This document shows positions 2,616-55,652 of a DNA stretch of 64,000 nt, piece by piece. Every line of letters begins with the position of its first letter. Position 1 is the first letter of the stretch. Under the pieces are notes generated by a model that worked only from the letters and a program-made list of their open reading frames with translations, was not told the DNA's origin and ran no database searches. The translations under genes and the position numbers were made by a program. The DNA is taken from the NCBI RefSeq assembly GCF_030545015.1, contig NZ_CP120653.1, forward strand, positions 62,001 to 126,000, read 5' to 3'. This DNA is from Myroides sp. JBRI-B21084. GTDB lineage: Bacteria; Bacteroidota; Bacteroidia; Flavobacteriales; Flavobacteriaceae.

Positions 2616-4226
2616 ATGCCAACACTCAATTGGATAGGAAAAGACAAAGTAATTAACCATCATCAAGATGTACCTTATAAAGTTTTAGAACAGCAATATA
2701 CGTATAGCAATGGTTCAGAACACACTTTTAATTTCCCTCCTTTGGAGGGGTGTCCGCAGGACGGGGTGGTTCATAGTGAAAACAAAATTATTCATGGAGA
2801 TAACCTTGAAGCTTTAAAGAGTTTGCTACCACAATATGAGGGCAAAATAAAGTGTATTTATATTGACCCTCCTTACAATACAGGAAATGAAGGCTGGGTT
2901 TATAATGATAATGTAAATGACCCTAAAATTAAAAAGTGGTTAGGACAAGTTGTTGGAAAAGAAAGTGAAGATTTATCTAGGCATGACAAGTGGTTGTGTA
3001 TGATGTACCCCAGATTAAAGTTACTTCATAAATTATTAGCTGATGATGGTGTAATATTTATTTCATTGGATGATAATGAATTTGCAAACTTGAAACTAAT
3101 TTGTGATGAGATTTTTGGTATTTATAATTTTTTAAATGATGTAATTTGGCAACATAGCATACAACCAAAAGGTTATCTTGGGAAATTTTCAATACATCAT
3201 AATCATACTTTAGTTTACTCAAAAAACACAAGTTTTATTCTTGGAAATTTAGAAAGAACAGATGAACATAACAAAGCTTATTCAAATCCTGACAATGACC
3301 CAAGAGGAAAATGGAGAACAGGTGATGTTAGAAATGCATTATATAGACCTAATTTAATTTATGATATTCAAACTCCTTCAGGTAAAATAATTAAACCTCC
3401 AAAAAATGGTTGGAGATGGAGTAAAGAAACTTTAAATGAAAAGATTGAAACAAAAGAGATTTTCTTCAATAAAGATGAAACTAATATTGTAAGAAAAATT
3501 TATTTGACAAATGTTGAAGGAAGAGCACCTGAAACAATTTGGTTTGGTCAAGATGTAGGAACTACAAGAGATGCGAATAAAACACTAAAAGAGATATTCC
3601 ATAACGAAGATATTCCATTTGACACACCAAAACCAGTAAATTTAATAGGTAGAATTTTAGAAATATCAACTGATAAAAACTCTATAATCCTCGATTCTTT
3701 TGCAGGTTCAGGCACAACAGCTCATGCTGTTTTAAACCTAAACAAACAAGATGGAGGTAACAGGAAATTCATTTTAATTGAAATGGAGAATTATGCCAGC
3801 ACTATTACAGCTGAAAGAGTAAAAAGAGTAATTAAGGGTTATGGTACAGAAGCTAAACCTATAGAGGGAACAGGTGGCCATTTTAGTTTTTATGAGTTAG
3901 GAGAACCTATATTTTTAGAAAATGATTTATTAAATGAAGCCATTGGCATAGAAAAAATTCATGAGTATGTGTGGTTTTCAGAAACAAAATCTAGTTATAC
4001 AAAGCAAGAGGAACAATACTTACTTGGATTAAAAGAGCAAACTGCTTACTATTTCTATTATGATGCAAATGCTATGACCACATTAGATGAAAGTTTTTTA
4101 AGAAAATTAAAAACTAAAGCAGAGCAGTATATAATTTATGCAGATAATTGTTTGTTAGATGAAAAACTAATGAGTAAATATCACATTATTTTCAAAAAAA
4201 TACCTAGAGATATAACAAGGTTTTAG
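2616..4226 (+). CDS. mod: Type III restriction-modification system DNA methyltransferase (Mod)
   Basis: A protein of 536 residues. The catalytic motif IV DPPYNTG is at 84-90 and the SAM-binding FAGSG motif is at 362-366. The catalytic motif therefore comes first, which is the beta-class amino-methyltransferase order, with the target-recognition region between (about 150-340). Mod recognises the site, modifies adenine on one strand, and is required for cleavage by Res. Oddity: residues 40-52 (FPPLEGCPQDGVV) are encoded by a 40-bp palindromic repeat (2733-2772) related to repeats around 47.4-48.2 kb, inserted in frame ahead of the SAM/catalytic domain. The next gene starts 2 bases after the stop. 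Arginine is mostly AGA, unlike the neighbouring chromosome, which suggests acquisition by transfer. Confidence 0.92.
   Translation: MPTLNWIGKDKVINHHQDVPYKVLEQQYTYSNGSEHTFNFPPLEGCPQDGVVHSENKIIHGDNLEALKSLLPQYEGKIKCIYIDPPYNTGNEGWVYNDNVNDPKIKKWLGQVVGKESEDLSRHDKWLCMMYPRLKLLHKLLADDGVIFISLDDNEFANLKLICDEIFGIYNFLNDVIWQHSIQPKGYLGKFSIHHNHTLVYSKNTSFILGNLERTDEHNKAYSNPDNDPRGKWRTGDVRNALYRPNLIYDIQTPSGKIIKPPKNGWRWSKETLNEKIETKEIFFNKDETNIVRKIYLTNVEGRAPETIWFGQDVGTTRDANKTLKEIFHNEDIPFDTPKPVNLIGRILEISTDKNSIILDSFAGSGTTAHAVLNLNKQDGGNRKFILIEMENYASTITAERVKRVIKGYGTEAKPIEGTGGHFSFYELGEPIFLENDLLNEAIGIEKIHEYVWFSETKSSYTKQEEQYLLGLKEQTAYYFYYDANAMTTLDESFLRKLKTKAEQYIIYADNCLLDEKLMSKYHIIFKKIPRDITRF
2733..2772 (+). repeat. REP-like palindromic element inserted in frame in mod
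   Basis: A 40-bp element with two adjacent hairpins, ccctcc-ttt-ggaggg and gtcc-gca-ggac, ending in the tail ggggtggttc. The same architecture and tail occur in the intergenic repeats at 47475-47518, 48090-48130 and 48133-48171. Here it is read through as 13 codons without disrupting the frame. It is GC-rich compared with its surroundings. Confidence 0.85.
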
Positions 4227-47397: not shown

Positions 47398-47518
47398 CAC
47401 CCCGGTTTTCACTTTCGTGGTATTTTCCACCACGGTCTTCGACCACCCCTCCGAAGGAGGGGAAGTATCACATTCATTCCCCTCTTTTTAAGAGGGGTGC
47501 CCGCAGGGTGGGGTGTTC
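47398..47518 (+). repeat. 121-bp flanking repeat, copy A (3' side of the DUF559 gene)
   Basis: Begins caccccggttttcactttcg and ends gcagggtggggtgttc. It contains one palindromic unit in reverse orientation (gaccacccctccgaaggagggga, 47441-47463) and one in forward orientation (attcccctc...gggtggggtgttc, 47475-47518), i.e. a REPIN-like inverted pair. It is almost identical to copy B at 48009-48130, in direct orientation. It is strongly GC-rich compared with the surrounding DNA. Confidence 0.9.
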
Positions 47519-47536
47519 CTTTGTAAATTAAGCTAT

Positions 47537-47959
47537 TCACCCTTCGCCAAATGTGTTTACAATAAAAGTTTCTAGTTCAAGCATCACATTATCTAAATCG
47601 TGTTTTATTCTAAAATCGGAAATTCTGTAAACAGCTAATCCTAAATTAGTTAAAAAATCTTCACGCATAGCGTCATACTCTTCTTTTCCATTATGGCTAT
47701 TTCCGTCAATTTCAATAATCAAACCTAATGATTTTACATAGAAATCAACAATAAAACTACCAATAATTCGCTGTCTATCAAAATCAATGTTCCAAAAAGT
47801 ACCGGCACGTACTTGTTTCCAAAAAATAACTTCAGATAAAACGCCTGCTTTTCTTAAAGCTCTTGCTCGATTTCTAAATGCCTGATTAGTAGGTAAAACC
47901 GGAATGGATTTTCGAAATATGGGTTTGCTGTTAATGTAAGTTACAATTTCGTTTTTCAT
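47537..47959 (-). CDS. DUF559 domain-containing endonuclease-like protein
   Basis: A protein of 140 residues of the DUF559 (Vsr-like, PD-(D/E)xK) family: Glu43 in SEVIFWKQVR, then FDRQRIIGSFIVDFYV with Asp72 and LIIEIDGNSH with Glu83 and Asp85, the expected catalytic residues, all present. Vsr itself nicks DNA at T:G mismatches; DUF559 proteins have no firmly known role. The gene sits between two direct copies of a 121/122-bp palindromic repeat and its stop is about 18 bases from copy A. This suggests that the nuclease and repeats form one mobile or maintained unit, as RAYT transposases do with REPs (inference). Confidence 0.88.
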   Translation of the reverse strand: MKNEIVTYINSKPIFRKSIPVLPTNQAFRNRARALRKAGVLSEVIFWKQVRAGTFWNIDFDRQRIIGSFIVDFYVKSLGLIIEIDGNSHNGKEEYDAMREDFLTNLGLAVYRISDFRIKHDLDNVMLELETFIVNTFGEG

Positions 47960-48008
47960 TGTCTTTTTCTGTGTTTCACTTTTTATTGTTACATGGAGGT
48001 GAATTTTG

Positions 48009-48130
48009 CACCCCGGCTTTCACTTTCGTGGTATTTTCCACCCCGGTCTTCACCACCCCCCTCCGAAAAAGGGGGAGTATCACGTTCATTCCCCTCTTTT
48101 TAAGAGGTGTGCCCGCAGGGTGGGGTGTTC
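48009..48130 (+). repeat. 122-bp flanking repeat, copy B (5' side of the DUF559 gene)
   Basis: Same structure and orientation as 47398-47518, with about ten differences, several of them compensated in the hairpins (for example cccctccgaaaaaggggg replacing the copy-A stem). It begins 50 bases upstream of the DUF559 start codon. Confidence 0.9.
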
Positions 48131-48132
48131 AC

Positions 48133-48171
48133 TTCTCTTTTTAAGAGGGGTGCCCGTAGGGTGGGGTGTTC
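48133..48171 (+). repeat. Third, partial palindromic unit
   Basis: A single forward unit (ttctctttttaagaggggt through gggtggggtgttc) follows copy B directly. A further decayed start (aatcctctttttaaaccctc, 48171-48190) follows. Units therefore accumulate in tandem on this side. Confidence 0.85.
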
Positions 48172-48397
48172 AATCCTCTTTTTAAACCCTCTTTGTAAGA
48201 AAGGTTTTTATCTGTATTTCGCAATCATTTTATAAAGATTAAGCTATCAGCATTGTATTTTAATAATACATAAACTAAAATAAGATTTTTTTTAATAGAA
48301 ATTATAAGTAAGTAGGGATGTTTGTACGAATGATTTTATAACTTTTAATAAAAGATACTTGGGGGATACTTGGGGGATACTTGGGCCAAATAGGCAT

Positions 48398-52345: not shown

Positions 52346-52415
52346 TATATTTGCAGAGTCATTTCCCTAGGGAAAAGGACCTGGTCGGCCACAACACCTT
52401 AGTTGTGGCATTTTT
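52322..52415 (+). ncRNA. Candidate small RNA with its own promoter and terminator
   Basis: A near-consensus flavobacterial promoter (TTG at 52323-52325, TATATTTG at 52346-52353, 20-base spacer) is followed about 35 bases later by a strong terminator: gccacaac / gttgtggc, 6-base loop, then T5ATTTT (52388-52415). The predicted transcript of about 55-60 nt also contains ccctaggg and gacc-t-ggtc palindromes and no open frame. It could be an sRNA or a stand-alone attenuated leader. Its target is unknown. Confidence 0.55.
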
Positions 52416-52899
52416 ATTTTACCCTTTTTTCATATTTGTCATTATAATATTTTTGATTCTTATCATCATCAATATGAAAACACGTAACTATTACATAGTC
52501 TGGTGTTATTTTTTCCATGACAACTATAAACCCTCCTTCTTTAAACCAAAAATAATCTCTTATTTTACCATCTGCTTCTAAAAATTGAAAACAGGTTACA
52601 TCTTCACTATCTTTATTATCTAAGATTGGTTTTATCCAATGGATTTTATTTGCCCTTTTCTTATCAAAACATCTCTTACCTTTCACACCTCTAGTTATAA
52701 TTTTTACAAAAGTATGTGGATATTTTTCGTAGCCTTCTTCCTTAGAGTTTCTAATATCTATGATAACTTTACAACCATCAAAGTAAAATTCATTATCAAT
52801 AAAATCAGATTTAAATAGTTGATAAAGCTCTTCTAAATGTTCATCTGATGGGTCAATACCTAAATTAGGAATATGATCATCTAAATTTAATAAATCCAT
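52414..52899 (-). CDS. Small protein of the candidate defence operon, possibly an RNase-type toxin
   Basis: A protein of 161 residues with no firm family. The pattern HTFVKIITRGVKGKRCFDKKR, NKIHWIKPILDN, YFWFKEGGFIVVMEKI, YVIVTCFHIDDD resembles small nucleases of the BECR (barnase/EndoU/colicin/RelE-like) type found in phage- and mobile-element-borne toxins; this is a tentative reading. It overlaps the DUF3800 gene by one base (TAATG), so it is made with it. It is the last gene of the three-gene operon 55652-52414. Confidence 0.55.
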   Translation of the reverse strand: MDLLNLDDHIPNLGIDPSDEHLEELYQLFKSDFIDNEFYFDGCKVIIDIRNSKEEGYEKYPHTFVKIITRGVKGKRCFDKKRANKIHWIKPILDNKDSEDVTCFQFLEADGKIRDYFWFKEGGFIVVMEKITPDYVIVTCFHIDDDKNQKYYNDKYEKRVK

Positions 52900-53609
52900 T
52901 ATAGCTTTATTTTAGGTTGATGATCAAAAATATTAAATTTAGATTCCCATGGTGGTGTACCTTCCTCTAGATTAAATCCTGATTTTAACTCTAAATATTT
53001 AATGAAATCCATTCTGTTCTTAGTTGGATTTACAATATTATTCATTACAACTCTCGTTTTATAAGTTATAGCTCCAATAAAAAAATCAGCTAATTGAAAG
53101 AAATTATTGTCGTGAGAATGTAAATGCTGGAAATGTTTGAATGGACTATTACCTTTATATTCAGAATTAAAAATCTCTTTAATTTTTTTTAGTTTTTCTC
53201 TACCACGAGTATTTTGGATATCAATAAAAACCCTATATTCATCTCCATTGTTATTGTTTGGATGTAATAGATAATAGGTCATTTTGTAATAGAAATTATC
53301 ATGGGAACCTTGATTATAATCGATATGATTTAAACGCTCTTTGTATTTGACTAAAACACAACGAAATTGTAATGATGATCTAAAAAAGTAATCGACCAAT
53401 TCTTTATATAATTCAATTCTAGCATTTGAAAATTTATTCCATTTTAACTCTGAATTTTGATTATATTTTGCTAGAATTTGATTGAATTCATTTTGTAATT
53501 CATTATACTCATTCATTGGTACTTTGATGTAACCAATACACATTACCGGAATTTTGTCGTGTTCTAAATGACAACTTTCATCTATATAAAAATCATATTT
53601 ATTATTCAT
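52899..53609 (-). CDS. DUF3800 domain-containing protein
   Basis: A protein of 236 residues with the DUF3800 hallmarks: N-terminal YDFYIDESCH (Asp9 or so, the first acidic residue of an RNase H-like fold), RVFIDIQNTRGREK (about 125-138) and C-terminal FFQLADFFIGAITY (about 173-186). The domain is widely found in defence islands and is predicted to be a nuclease of the RNase H superfamily. It lies 27 bases after the GHKL ATPase-nuclease gene and overlaps the following gene by one base. Confidence 0.85.
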   Translation of the reverse strand: MNNKYDFYIDESCHLEHDKIPVMCIGYIKVPMNEYNELQNEFNQILAKYNQNSELKWNKFSNARIELYKELVDYFFRSSLQFRCVLVKYKERLNHIDYNQGSHDNFYYKMTYYLLHPNNNNGDEYRVFIDIQNTRGREKLKKIKEIFNSEYKGNSPFKHFQHLHSHDNNFFQLADFFIGAITYKTRVVMNNIVNPTKNRMDFIKYLELKSGFNLEEGTPPWESKFNIFDHQPKIKL

Positions 53610-53636
53610 TGTGAATTTTTAGAGCTAATTAAAAGT

Positions 53637-55652
53637 TTAATTTAATTGACCGTTCGTGGCAATTTCTGTTAATTCATTTGAAGCATCTTTATTTAAATTT
53701 ATTCCTTTTGCTTCTAAGTTTTCGATTACGGCAGATTTGAATTCTAATTTATTAATTAAGTGTTTGTGTTTTATTTTGAACAACATAAATAAATCATCCC
53801 AAGTCATTGCATATATTTCGTAATTTCTAATTGATTGAACTAAATATTTTTGTCCTTTATTTTTTTGGTTTTCATATAAATCAATAATATAATCATCTAC
53901 TTTTTTACCTACTAAAATAAATTTCCAATTTCTTCTTAAGCTATTAAAACGTTCTTCCTCAATAATAAATCTTAAATATCTTTCAACTTGTTGAAACTGT
54001 TCTGAACCTATAACAACTGAAGGCCTTTTTAATTCAACTATAATATTTTCTTCAATTGTTAAATCATTATTTGTGGCATCTGGAATATCTGATTTTCTAC
54101 TAATAAAAATATCTGGACGTTTAAGCTTCTCCTTAGTATCAATTGTTTCGGGCTTTTTATTATTTATTTCAAGATGAGCATAATAATTGTTTAGTAACAC
54201 TTCAAAGTTTTTATCCGCAGAAACTAGATGAAATTGTTCTCCAAATAACCAATAGTTATCCTCTATAACTTTTTGAATATGTTCTCTCTCATTTGTGAAT
54301 TTTTCTAAATCATAGATTAATGTTTTTAAAATTTCAACAACATTGAATCTATTTTCTAATAGTTTTATAAGGGCATTAATATGGGATAAGTTTGTCTTCT
54401 TTAAAGTTTTGGCTAATTCATCTCTTTCTTCATCAGTGAGTTTTACAACATTTTCAACAATAGACAATACACTTTCTCTTTGATCAGTGTCGAGTAACAA
54501 ATTTAAAAATCCAATAATTGTTTTACTTTGAGTTGTAGTTAAACTTTGAAAAATTTTTGGTTGTAAACTATATAATTCTTTGATCACATTTTCTAAATCA
54601 ATTTTTCTTAAATTGTCATAAGAATTATTTTTAAAAGCTGGAAACACCTTGCTTTTATTGTAATTATCAATTAACTCATTTGCTTTTGAATTTCTAATGA
54701 ATAATTTTTCTTTTTCTGAAACAAATTCATTTAGTAACTCGATAAGATTCCTAAACGTAATATCTGTTTGATTTTTTCCTGAAAAGTCAAATGTAGGGTT
54801 ATCTTCTTTTGTTATATTAAAACTGTCAAAATAGCTAGATTCAATGTACAAAGAATGGTGAAAGTCTACTGCTTTGTTGTTAAATGAAGTATGTTTTCTA
54901 AACACCTGCTTTTTCTCGTCATCTAAGAAATAATAATAGTACTTGTCACCAATTTTTTCTTTCCATCTAATATAACTTACCTTAAAATTATAATCTCCTA
55001 TTGGTATATTTTTTTCATCTGTATCATCAATAACAGAGAAATAGTCTAAAGAATTATTATTGATAAGTATTTTAAAATCTCTTTCTTTATTTAAATACAG
55101 GAACCATCCAAACTCATTTGCTAAAAACTTTTCGAAATCTTCGTTATCTAATAAATCGCTATAAATTTCACTAAAGTCTTCAAAAATTACTGTAGTACCA
55201 GTTCTTTGTTGATTAGAAATTGTTCTCTCAAATGTTTCAAAATCTTGGCTACTTTCTTTTTTAATTTGAATGTTATATTCTAAATACTTACCTTCTTTAG
55301 ATTTAAAAATTGTATTCCATGTTGCCTTATTACAAAAAGTTGAGAAAGAATATCTCCCTTTACCTTTTTTCCCTTTTACAAATCCCGTTTCTGAAAATGA
55401 ATTGGCTTTTAATGAAACCATAAAATTTCCGAAAGTGTCTGATATATTTTCAAAACTAATACCAGAACCATCATCAGAAATCGAAAAATTTTCCAAAGTT
55501 CCAATAGAATTACCTAAGAAATTAATATTTATTGTAGTTGCTCCAGCATCAAAACCATTCCATATATATTCGGCTATAGCTTTCTTATAATCGGATGGTA
55601 ATCCACTACCTTCAATACTTTTTGATGTTAATTTTGTAGTATGTTTTTTCAT
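53637..55652 (-). CDS. GHKL (MORC/Hsp90-type) ATPase fused to a PD-(D/E)xK Shedu-like nuclease
   Basis: A protein of 671 residues. The N-terminus is a Bergerat-fold ATPase: N-box AIAEYIWNGFDA (25-36; Glu28, Asn32), G1 box DDGSGI (60-65), and lid/G2 GKKGKGRYSF (94-103). The middle (about 110-460) is helical. The C-terminus matches a DUF4263/Shedu-type nuclease: EDNYWLFGEQF, RPDIF (Asp514), VELKRP (Glu540, Lys542), and GSEQFQQVERY. All catalytic residues look present. Such GHKL-nuclease fusions are candidates for phage defence that sense DNA. It heads an operon with DUF3800 and a small protein, inside an integrative remnant. Confidence 0.85.
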   Translation of the reverse strand: MKKHTTKLTSKSIEGSGLPSDYKKAIAEYIWNGFDAGATTININFLGNSIGTLENFSISDDGSGISFENISDTFGNFMVSLKANSFSETGFVKGKKGKGRYSFSTFCNKATWNTIFKSKEGKYLEYNIQIKKESSQDFETFERTISNQQRTGTTVIFEDFSEIYSDLLDNEDFEKFLANEFGWFLYLNKERDFKILINNNSLDYFSVIDDTDEKNIPIGDYNFKVSYIRWKEKIGDKYYYYFLDDEKKQVFRKHTSFNNKAVDFHHSLYIESSYFDSFNITKEDNPTFDFSGKNQTDITFRNLIELLNEFVSEKEKLFIRNSKANELIDNYNKSKVFPAFKNNSYDNLRKIDLENVIKELYSLQPKIFQSLTTTQSKTIIGFLNLLLDTDQRESVLSIVENVVKLTDEERDELAKTLKKTNLSHINALIKLLENRFNVVEILKTLIYDLEKFTNEREHIQKVIEDNYWLFGEQFHLVSADKNFEVLLNNYYAHLEINNKKPETIDTKEKLKRPDIFISRKSDIPDATNNDLTIEENIIVELKRPSVVIGSEQFQQVERYLRFIIEEERFNSLRRNWKFILVGKKVDDYIIDLYENQKNKGQKYLVQSIRNYEIYAMTWDDLFMLFKIKHKHLINKLEFKSAVIENLEAKGINLNKDASNELTEIATNGQLN

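Follow-up and report, generated by a model that had tools for sequence, protein, structure and literature searches.

The window, a 64,000-nucleotide stretch of the Myroides sp. JBRI-B21084 genome (contig NZ_CP120653.1), codes on its minus strand (47537..47959) for a standalone 140-residue DUF559 (PF04480) nuclease, recognized by a profile match above the curated cut-off (88.7 bits against 20.6, E 2.8e-25) and by fold matches to I-Bth0305I and NGO0050. The gene is bracketed by two direct repeats, one of 121 bp and one of 122 bp, each made of two inverted palindromic units: repeat 1 lies on its 3' side (47398..47518) and repeat 2, a direct copy, on its 5' side (48009..48130). An earlier note on this DNA had placed the DUF559 gene between two directly oriented repeats, each with one palindromic unit in reverse and one in forward orientation as in REPINs, and our profile search and repeat comparison confirm both points. 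Its wording "almost identical" is slightly strong for two direct copies that align in two blocks, one of 73 nt at 93% identity and one of 52 nt at 88%. The third unit that it had noted stands singly on the plus strand at 48131..48171, and the decayed fourth, at about 48172..48192 of the same strand, is plausible by eye only.

A related solo unit of 39 nt, likewise proposed in that note, does stand in frame in a type III-like mod gene (unit 2733..2771, plus strand; gene 2616-4226), without a counterpart in any of the seven homologues compared; three of these are exactly 13 codons shorter and the remaining four, in a variable stretch, 6 to 12 codons shorter. With up to three mismatches allowed, the unit core GGGGTGCCCGCAGGGTGGGGTG has four matches in the window as against none in 100 shuffles; these four are all that the 2.5-Mb genome holds, three of them at its one DUF559 match. 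Folded as single-stranded DNA, repeat 1 is better than all 200 shuffles (z -4.1), while the folding of repeat 2 and of the mod unit alone is unremarkable (z -1.7 each, with 12 and 11 of 200 shuffles as good). An Rfam search at the DUF559 locus gave no match up to E 1. The left neighbor of the gene, a DUF2130 gene, has homologs in seven of 60 other genomes of the genus; no DUF559 gene or unit was noticed in these seven stretches (at most 1.1 kb), and they were rejected as a guide to an unoccupied version of the window locus because their flanks are not syntenic. Elsewhere in the window (52414-55652, minus strand) adjoining genes code for a HATPase protein, a DUF3800 protein and a small protein that matches no Pfam family, perhaps a defense cluster, although this role is a guess.

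The enzyme and the architecture of the unit

The structure model of the DUF559 protein (mean pLDDT 89) matches 3hrl and the homing endonuclease I-Bth0305I (3r3p, E 1.4e-4), both at E <0.001. The same relationship emerges from sequence, as the family profile A1 recovers 3r3p (E 5.7e-6) along with 3hrl, the window sequence alone matching 3hrl only; hence, by both profile and model, the catalytic domain is homologous to that of the EDxHD homing endonucleases. The available part of a 2022 paper also places a DUF559 gene in the EDxHD family (PMC9403480). The window gene differs from that of I-Bth0305I in lying outside any intron or intein and in being framed by repeats that also exist alone. With Vsr it shares a fold family, but the match of the model to Vsr is weak (E 0.19-0.21). 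The DUF559 protein also matches, weakly, a model of type II methyl-directed enzymes (E 1.8e-4). The Caulobacter protein VsrA, which contains a DUF559 domain, caused an SOS response in cells lacking a cytosine methyltransferase, according to the portion of PMC12907096 at hand.

A typical unit reads TTCCCCTCC-TTT-GGAGGGG-TG-CCTGAAAGG-C-GGGGTGG, that is, a C-arm followed by a G-arm, then a small hairpin and, last, the second G-run. In other units a short linker, for instance CTA or TTA, takes the place of the small hairpin. The 33 distinct versions of this mini-hairpin, drawn from 110 distinct contexts, have C-G as their outer pair in 15 cases, G-C in seven, T-A in four and A-T in one. The outer position is thus paired in 82% (shuffles: mean 36%, maximum 61%), and the inner variable position also in 82% (shuffles: mean 55%, maximum 79%). 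We count these paired changes in favor of the reading that the units belong to a DUF559 element. The loop has the form GNA in 25 of the 33 versions, many of the loci having been fetched with patterns that favor G and A there.

Palindromic units at the flanks of DUF559 genes

The flanks of DUF559 genes were surveyed in three sets. A scan of genome contigs gave 32 loci related to that of the window, of which 31, all from Flavobacteriaceae, were used, a partial match from Candidatus Desantisbacteria (L127) being left out. The family set comprises 57 standalone genes, from 13 loci and 44 of 46 further regions; two split genes (L094, L095), fusions to helicase, HisD-like and HemD-like proteins and weak partial matches were set aside, as was the gene of the window itself, and one of the 57 lies at a contig end and was unusable, leaving 56 for the flank rule. 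The third set stems from a tblastn search against plasmids (42 records), from which 12 regions were fetched and one with a long fused frame (L237) dropped, leaving 11 standalone genes from Cyanobacteria, Alphaproteobacteria and Deinococcus. Gene names at unannotated loci (uvrA, leuS, aroA, polA, purN, hemD and others) were read from translations.

By a three-run flank rule drafted after the data had been seen, a unit flanks 31 of 31 window relatives, 45 of the 56 standalone genes in the family set and all 11 plasmid genes of other phyla, as against two of 203 neighboring genes. All of these controls come from loci of window relatives, and there is no GC-matched control for the GC-rich plasmid set. 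Repeats shared from flank to flank exceed the 99% control point in 24 of the 31 relatives, 37 of the 56 family genes and six of the 11 plasmid genes. The inverted-flank score ranges from 18 to 80 in the window relatives, with 23 of them at 43 or above, while its maximum in 192 neighboring genes is 39. Plain hairpin strength passes the 95% control point in just one of 31 relatives, two of 57 family genes and five of 11 plasmid genes, and it was rejected as a marker of the unit since neighboring genes reach the same scores.

Read by eye, the window relatives usually have one unit directly before the gene and its reverse complement directly after it, resembling terminal inverted repeats, and the three-run rule places units on both flanks in 24 of the 31. 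One unit per gene end in inverted orientation is the core arrangement at many loci; at two others (L096, L109) entire unit pairs stand in direct repeat as in the window, so that the units bracket the gene either as inverted copies or as whole direct-repeat pairs. The downstream unit was not seen by eye at four window relatives (L097-L099, L107), and three loci (L080, L083, L092) fail both the flank rule and the test of flank-to-flank similarity. By our reading, the window-relative gene occupies about ten different chromosomal places.

The units also follow the gene in sequence: flank similarity has a median score of 73.5 within a locus (n=56) as against 22 between loci (n=560), and it rises with the identity of the DUF559 proteins (Spearman 0.41 over 1540 non-independent pairs). 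The earlier note had suggested asking whether the repeats flank DUF559 genes beyond chance and whether unit sequence co-varies with DUF559 phylogeny; in these surveys the repeats flank the gene far beyond the controls, and unit sequence goes with the protein.

Several DUF559 domains are fused to other proteins. At six loci (L008, L013, L015, L021, L022, L032) the domain is fused in frame ahead of a HemD-like protein, between genes that read as hemC-like and hemE-like; palindromes precede the start codon, and several of these fusions also encode palindromes in the linker. At another locus (L012) a HisD-like protein ends in a fused DUF559 domain, and a palindrome follows directly on the stop codon.

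A thirteenth region, from an Escherichia coli record, holds ycjD, the DUF559 gene of this species, which in K-12 lies between sapF and fabI (1351407-1351760). Between ycjD and fabI, and thus on one side of ycjD only, stands a published intrastrand triplex motif (1351205-1351239), number 9 among the 23 K-12 motifs that Holder et al. 2015 (PMC4666352) list in their Table 1. That one of 23 motifs should lie beside this chosen gene is, by our own arithmetic, roughly a 1-in-100 event by chance, which is suggestive only. In the available part of that paper the motif is identified with BoxC and PIT elements, variability is reported to be higher around it, triplex formation is described in vitro with E. 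coli oligonucleotides and without in vivo support, mobility-conferring activities are said never to have been found at it, and its origin is left open; ycjD and fabI do not appear in its main text. The strict E. coli consensus occurs nowhere in the window and in none of the 31, 57 and 11 DUF559 flanks of the three sets; one of the six hemD fusions, L022, has it, as do both E. coli loci. Hence, an outright identity of the window's units with BoxC was rejected: judged from their sequence, they have the layout of BoxC and the triplex motif, not the E. coli consensus.

A sapF-ycjD query is matched by 5313 of 5426 E. coli genomes, with at least 80% of it covered in 3309, and the ycjD copies fetched include one frameshifted and one truncated. 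No clean empty ycjD site was seen among the seven fetched E. coli lacking the gene, all of which have a transporter gene after sapF, and the sapF-fabI region looks like a site of repeated replacement.

Empty sites, solo units and co-occurrence across genomes

The end of uvrA was located in 60 of 61 genomes of the genus. Among the 30 loci compared at this site (L156 was left unparsed), L136 and L137 carry the element, and at nine uvrA and the next gene are only 15-168 nt apart. Past the occupied elements, a portion of the uvrA end is present a second time, over up to about 98 bp, and in L114 the duplicate abuts the element; the duplication score exceeds the 99% point of shuffles in 11 of the 25 loci scored out of 31, namely L103 and ten loci of the uvrA site. 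Since these ten are related to one another, the duplication represents one or a few events.

Solo units have comparable empty sites. In leuS a window-type unit stands at one place in L213, L238 and L239, other palindromes occupy the same place in L249 and L262, and the other 26 of the 30 loci compared have none, as if this place, with its several palindrome types, were a tolerated landing site. In aroA there are two units in L268, one in L269 and none in L298, a close copy of the gene from the same assembly, which is listed at 7% contamination. By reading, a polA-like gene (L301) also has one unit. The solo units of mod, leuS and aroA stand in frame, and at ten loci with solo units, whose translations were read by eye, no other nuclease was noticed beside them. 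The empty sites for which the earlier note had suggested looking were thus found at uvrA for the gene, and at leuS, aroA and mod for solo units.

Across 121 genomes of the genus, the unit pattern occurs in 30 and a reversed control pattern in none. Standalone DUF559 genes, classed by hand as covering about 70 or more of 109 positions without a long fused frame, are likewise present in 30, a 113-residue fragment in G188 being counted as absence. Unit and gene occur together in 20 genomes, the unit alone in ten and the gene alone in ten, and the remaining 81 have neither of them (p 9e-9). The 20 genomes that combine the two contain 102 units, 41 of which fall within 1 kb of the DUF559 midpoint as against 0.07 expected, and 18 of the 20 contain such close units; the other 61 units are scattered at more than 1 kb from the gene. 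That repeats might be equally common without DUF559, which the earlier note had named as an outcome that would speak against its proposal, is not what we observed, the genomes having 3.4 units on average with a standalone gene and 0.43 without one. Across 149 genomes of the family, 72 have a PF04480 match, and all six with a stricter unit pattern are among them.

DUF559 genes and units as a candidate mobile element

That DUF559 genes and repeats belong together in this family is close to certain, and it is likely that DUF559 moves or maintains the repeats; the suggestion of the earlier note that a non-RAYT nuclease of the Vsr/DUF559 type may do so is thereby supported, and we regard it as strongly favored that DUF559 is the candidate engine of their spread. 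Specifically, we propose that a standalone DUF559 gene would form, together with the palindromic units at its two ends, a small mobile element, and that single units and unit pairs elsewhere would be its non-autonomous copies, much as the REPs and REPINs are of the RAYT transposases, which are unrelated enzymes. The DUF559 nuclease, of the Vsr/EDxHD homing type, might recognize the folded unit, with its hairpin, mini-hairpin and second G-run, when this is single-stranded, for example at a replication fork, and nick or cut there; repair would then insert a copy of the unit, or of the whole unit-gene-unit block, at a new site. In this manner the nuclease would spread its own gene and, in trans, the palindromic units. 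To the element and this recognition mechanism jointly we assign a probability of about 0.68. The kinship to I-Bth0305I and the SOS response reported for Caulobacter VsrA are counted in favor of this reading. The uvrA duplication fits widely spaced nicks followed by repair synthesis, and most other sites have no such duplication. Against mobilization we count the ten of 30 unit-bearing genomes without a recognized standalone gene, the ten of 30 genomes with the gene that lack this unit pattern, the loci without repeats (L080, L083, L092) or without a downstream unit (L097-L099, L107), the one-sided motif at ycjD, the failure of hairpin strength to set DUF559 genes apart, the plasmid set's want of a GC-matched control and the post-hoc nature of the flank rule.

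The kinship of DUF559 to a homing endonuclease permits an account, which we regard as unlikely, in which the palindromes would be the host's own or those of another mobilizer and the nuclease would home into them as landing sites and homology arms, without spreading them. The ten of 30 unit-bearing genomes without a recognized standalone gene, and the 61 of 102 units standing alone at more than 1 kb from it, are in keeping with such homing; nevertheless, the unit sequence tracks both protein and locus, the units of the window genome are almost confined to its DUF559 gene, and the ten loci read offered no other nuclease beside solo units. It is improbable, in our estimate, that DUF559 is an accessory of repair or restriction and the palindromes terminators or incidental. 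The weak match to a methyl-directed type II enzyme, the Caulobacter VsrA work (as given in the part of PMC12907096 at hand) and the undiagnostic nature of hairpin strength would agree with this, but terminators leave unexplained the three-run layout (31/31 against 2/203), the matching copies on two sides and the in-frame insertions, and the DUF559 locus is without an Rfam match. Least probable is the mobilization of the palindromes by RAYT/IS200 (Y1) transposases with DUF559 as a passenger: Y1_Tnp is indeed found in 87 of 121 genomes, including that of the window with two weak matches, but its association with the units is weak (25/30 against 62/91, p 0.08) and five unit-bearing genomes have no Y1. 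Thus, a RAYT origin of the units is unsupported.

The proposed DUF559 element shares with the RAYT/REP/REPIN systems a single enzyme gene flanked by short palindromes, inverted palindrome pairs both at the gene and elsewhere, dispersed non-autonomous copies, and copies within genes. It differs in that the partner is a PF04480 protein with a fold match of the PD-(D/E)XK nuclease type in place of a Y1 (HUH) transposase, and in that its units have a second G-run or mini-hairpin, with no GTAG tag noticed. With BoxC, PIT and the triplex motif, as described in the accessible part of PMC4666352, it shares the C-run, G-run and second G-run, the inverted pairs and the presence in many genomes, but the linker of the window unit is longer than the 1-6 nt loop given there. 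The CGTC-tagged REPs and the Rickettsia palindromic elements (PMC3733652) are similarly orphan palindromes whose mobilizer is not known and some of which lie in genes; in the published description of the CGTC REPs (Di Nocera et al. 2013, PMC3733652), stems start with A-T pairs and most tails are CCA, features that the DUF559 units do not have, and for this reason an identity with them was rejected. No title or abstract in the openly licensed PMC literature, where 14 papers mention DUF559, was found to link it to repeats.

In its boldest form, the reading would make DUF559, including E. coli YcjD, a widespread second class of palindrome mobilizers, namely Vsr/homing-type enzymes that recognize folded or triplex repeats and copy their own gene and units of the BoxC/triplex type, in frame into essential genes too. 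We hold this at even odds, lowered from slightly better than even on account of the absence of the strict E. coli consensus from most DUF559 flanks. If true, it would supply the missing mobility enzyme for a class of repeats known since the 1990s, give bacterial palindromic repeats at least two unrelated engines, the HUH transposases and Vsr-type nucleases, provide a function for a family of unknown function, and explain why some proteins carry short peptide insertions like those of Mod, LeuS and AroA. As one example of a nuclease gene framed by units of BoxC layout lies in E. coli K-12, the question is testable in the laboratory.

Two loci are noteworthy for the number of their units. Around one DUF559 gene (G220:C1:1810126-1813645) we observed 17 units, the most of any locus listed. 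At another (L214, G194:C94), tandem unit pairs recur every 421 bp next to the DUF559 gene, each repeat of the array including about 350 bp of other sequence.
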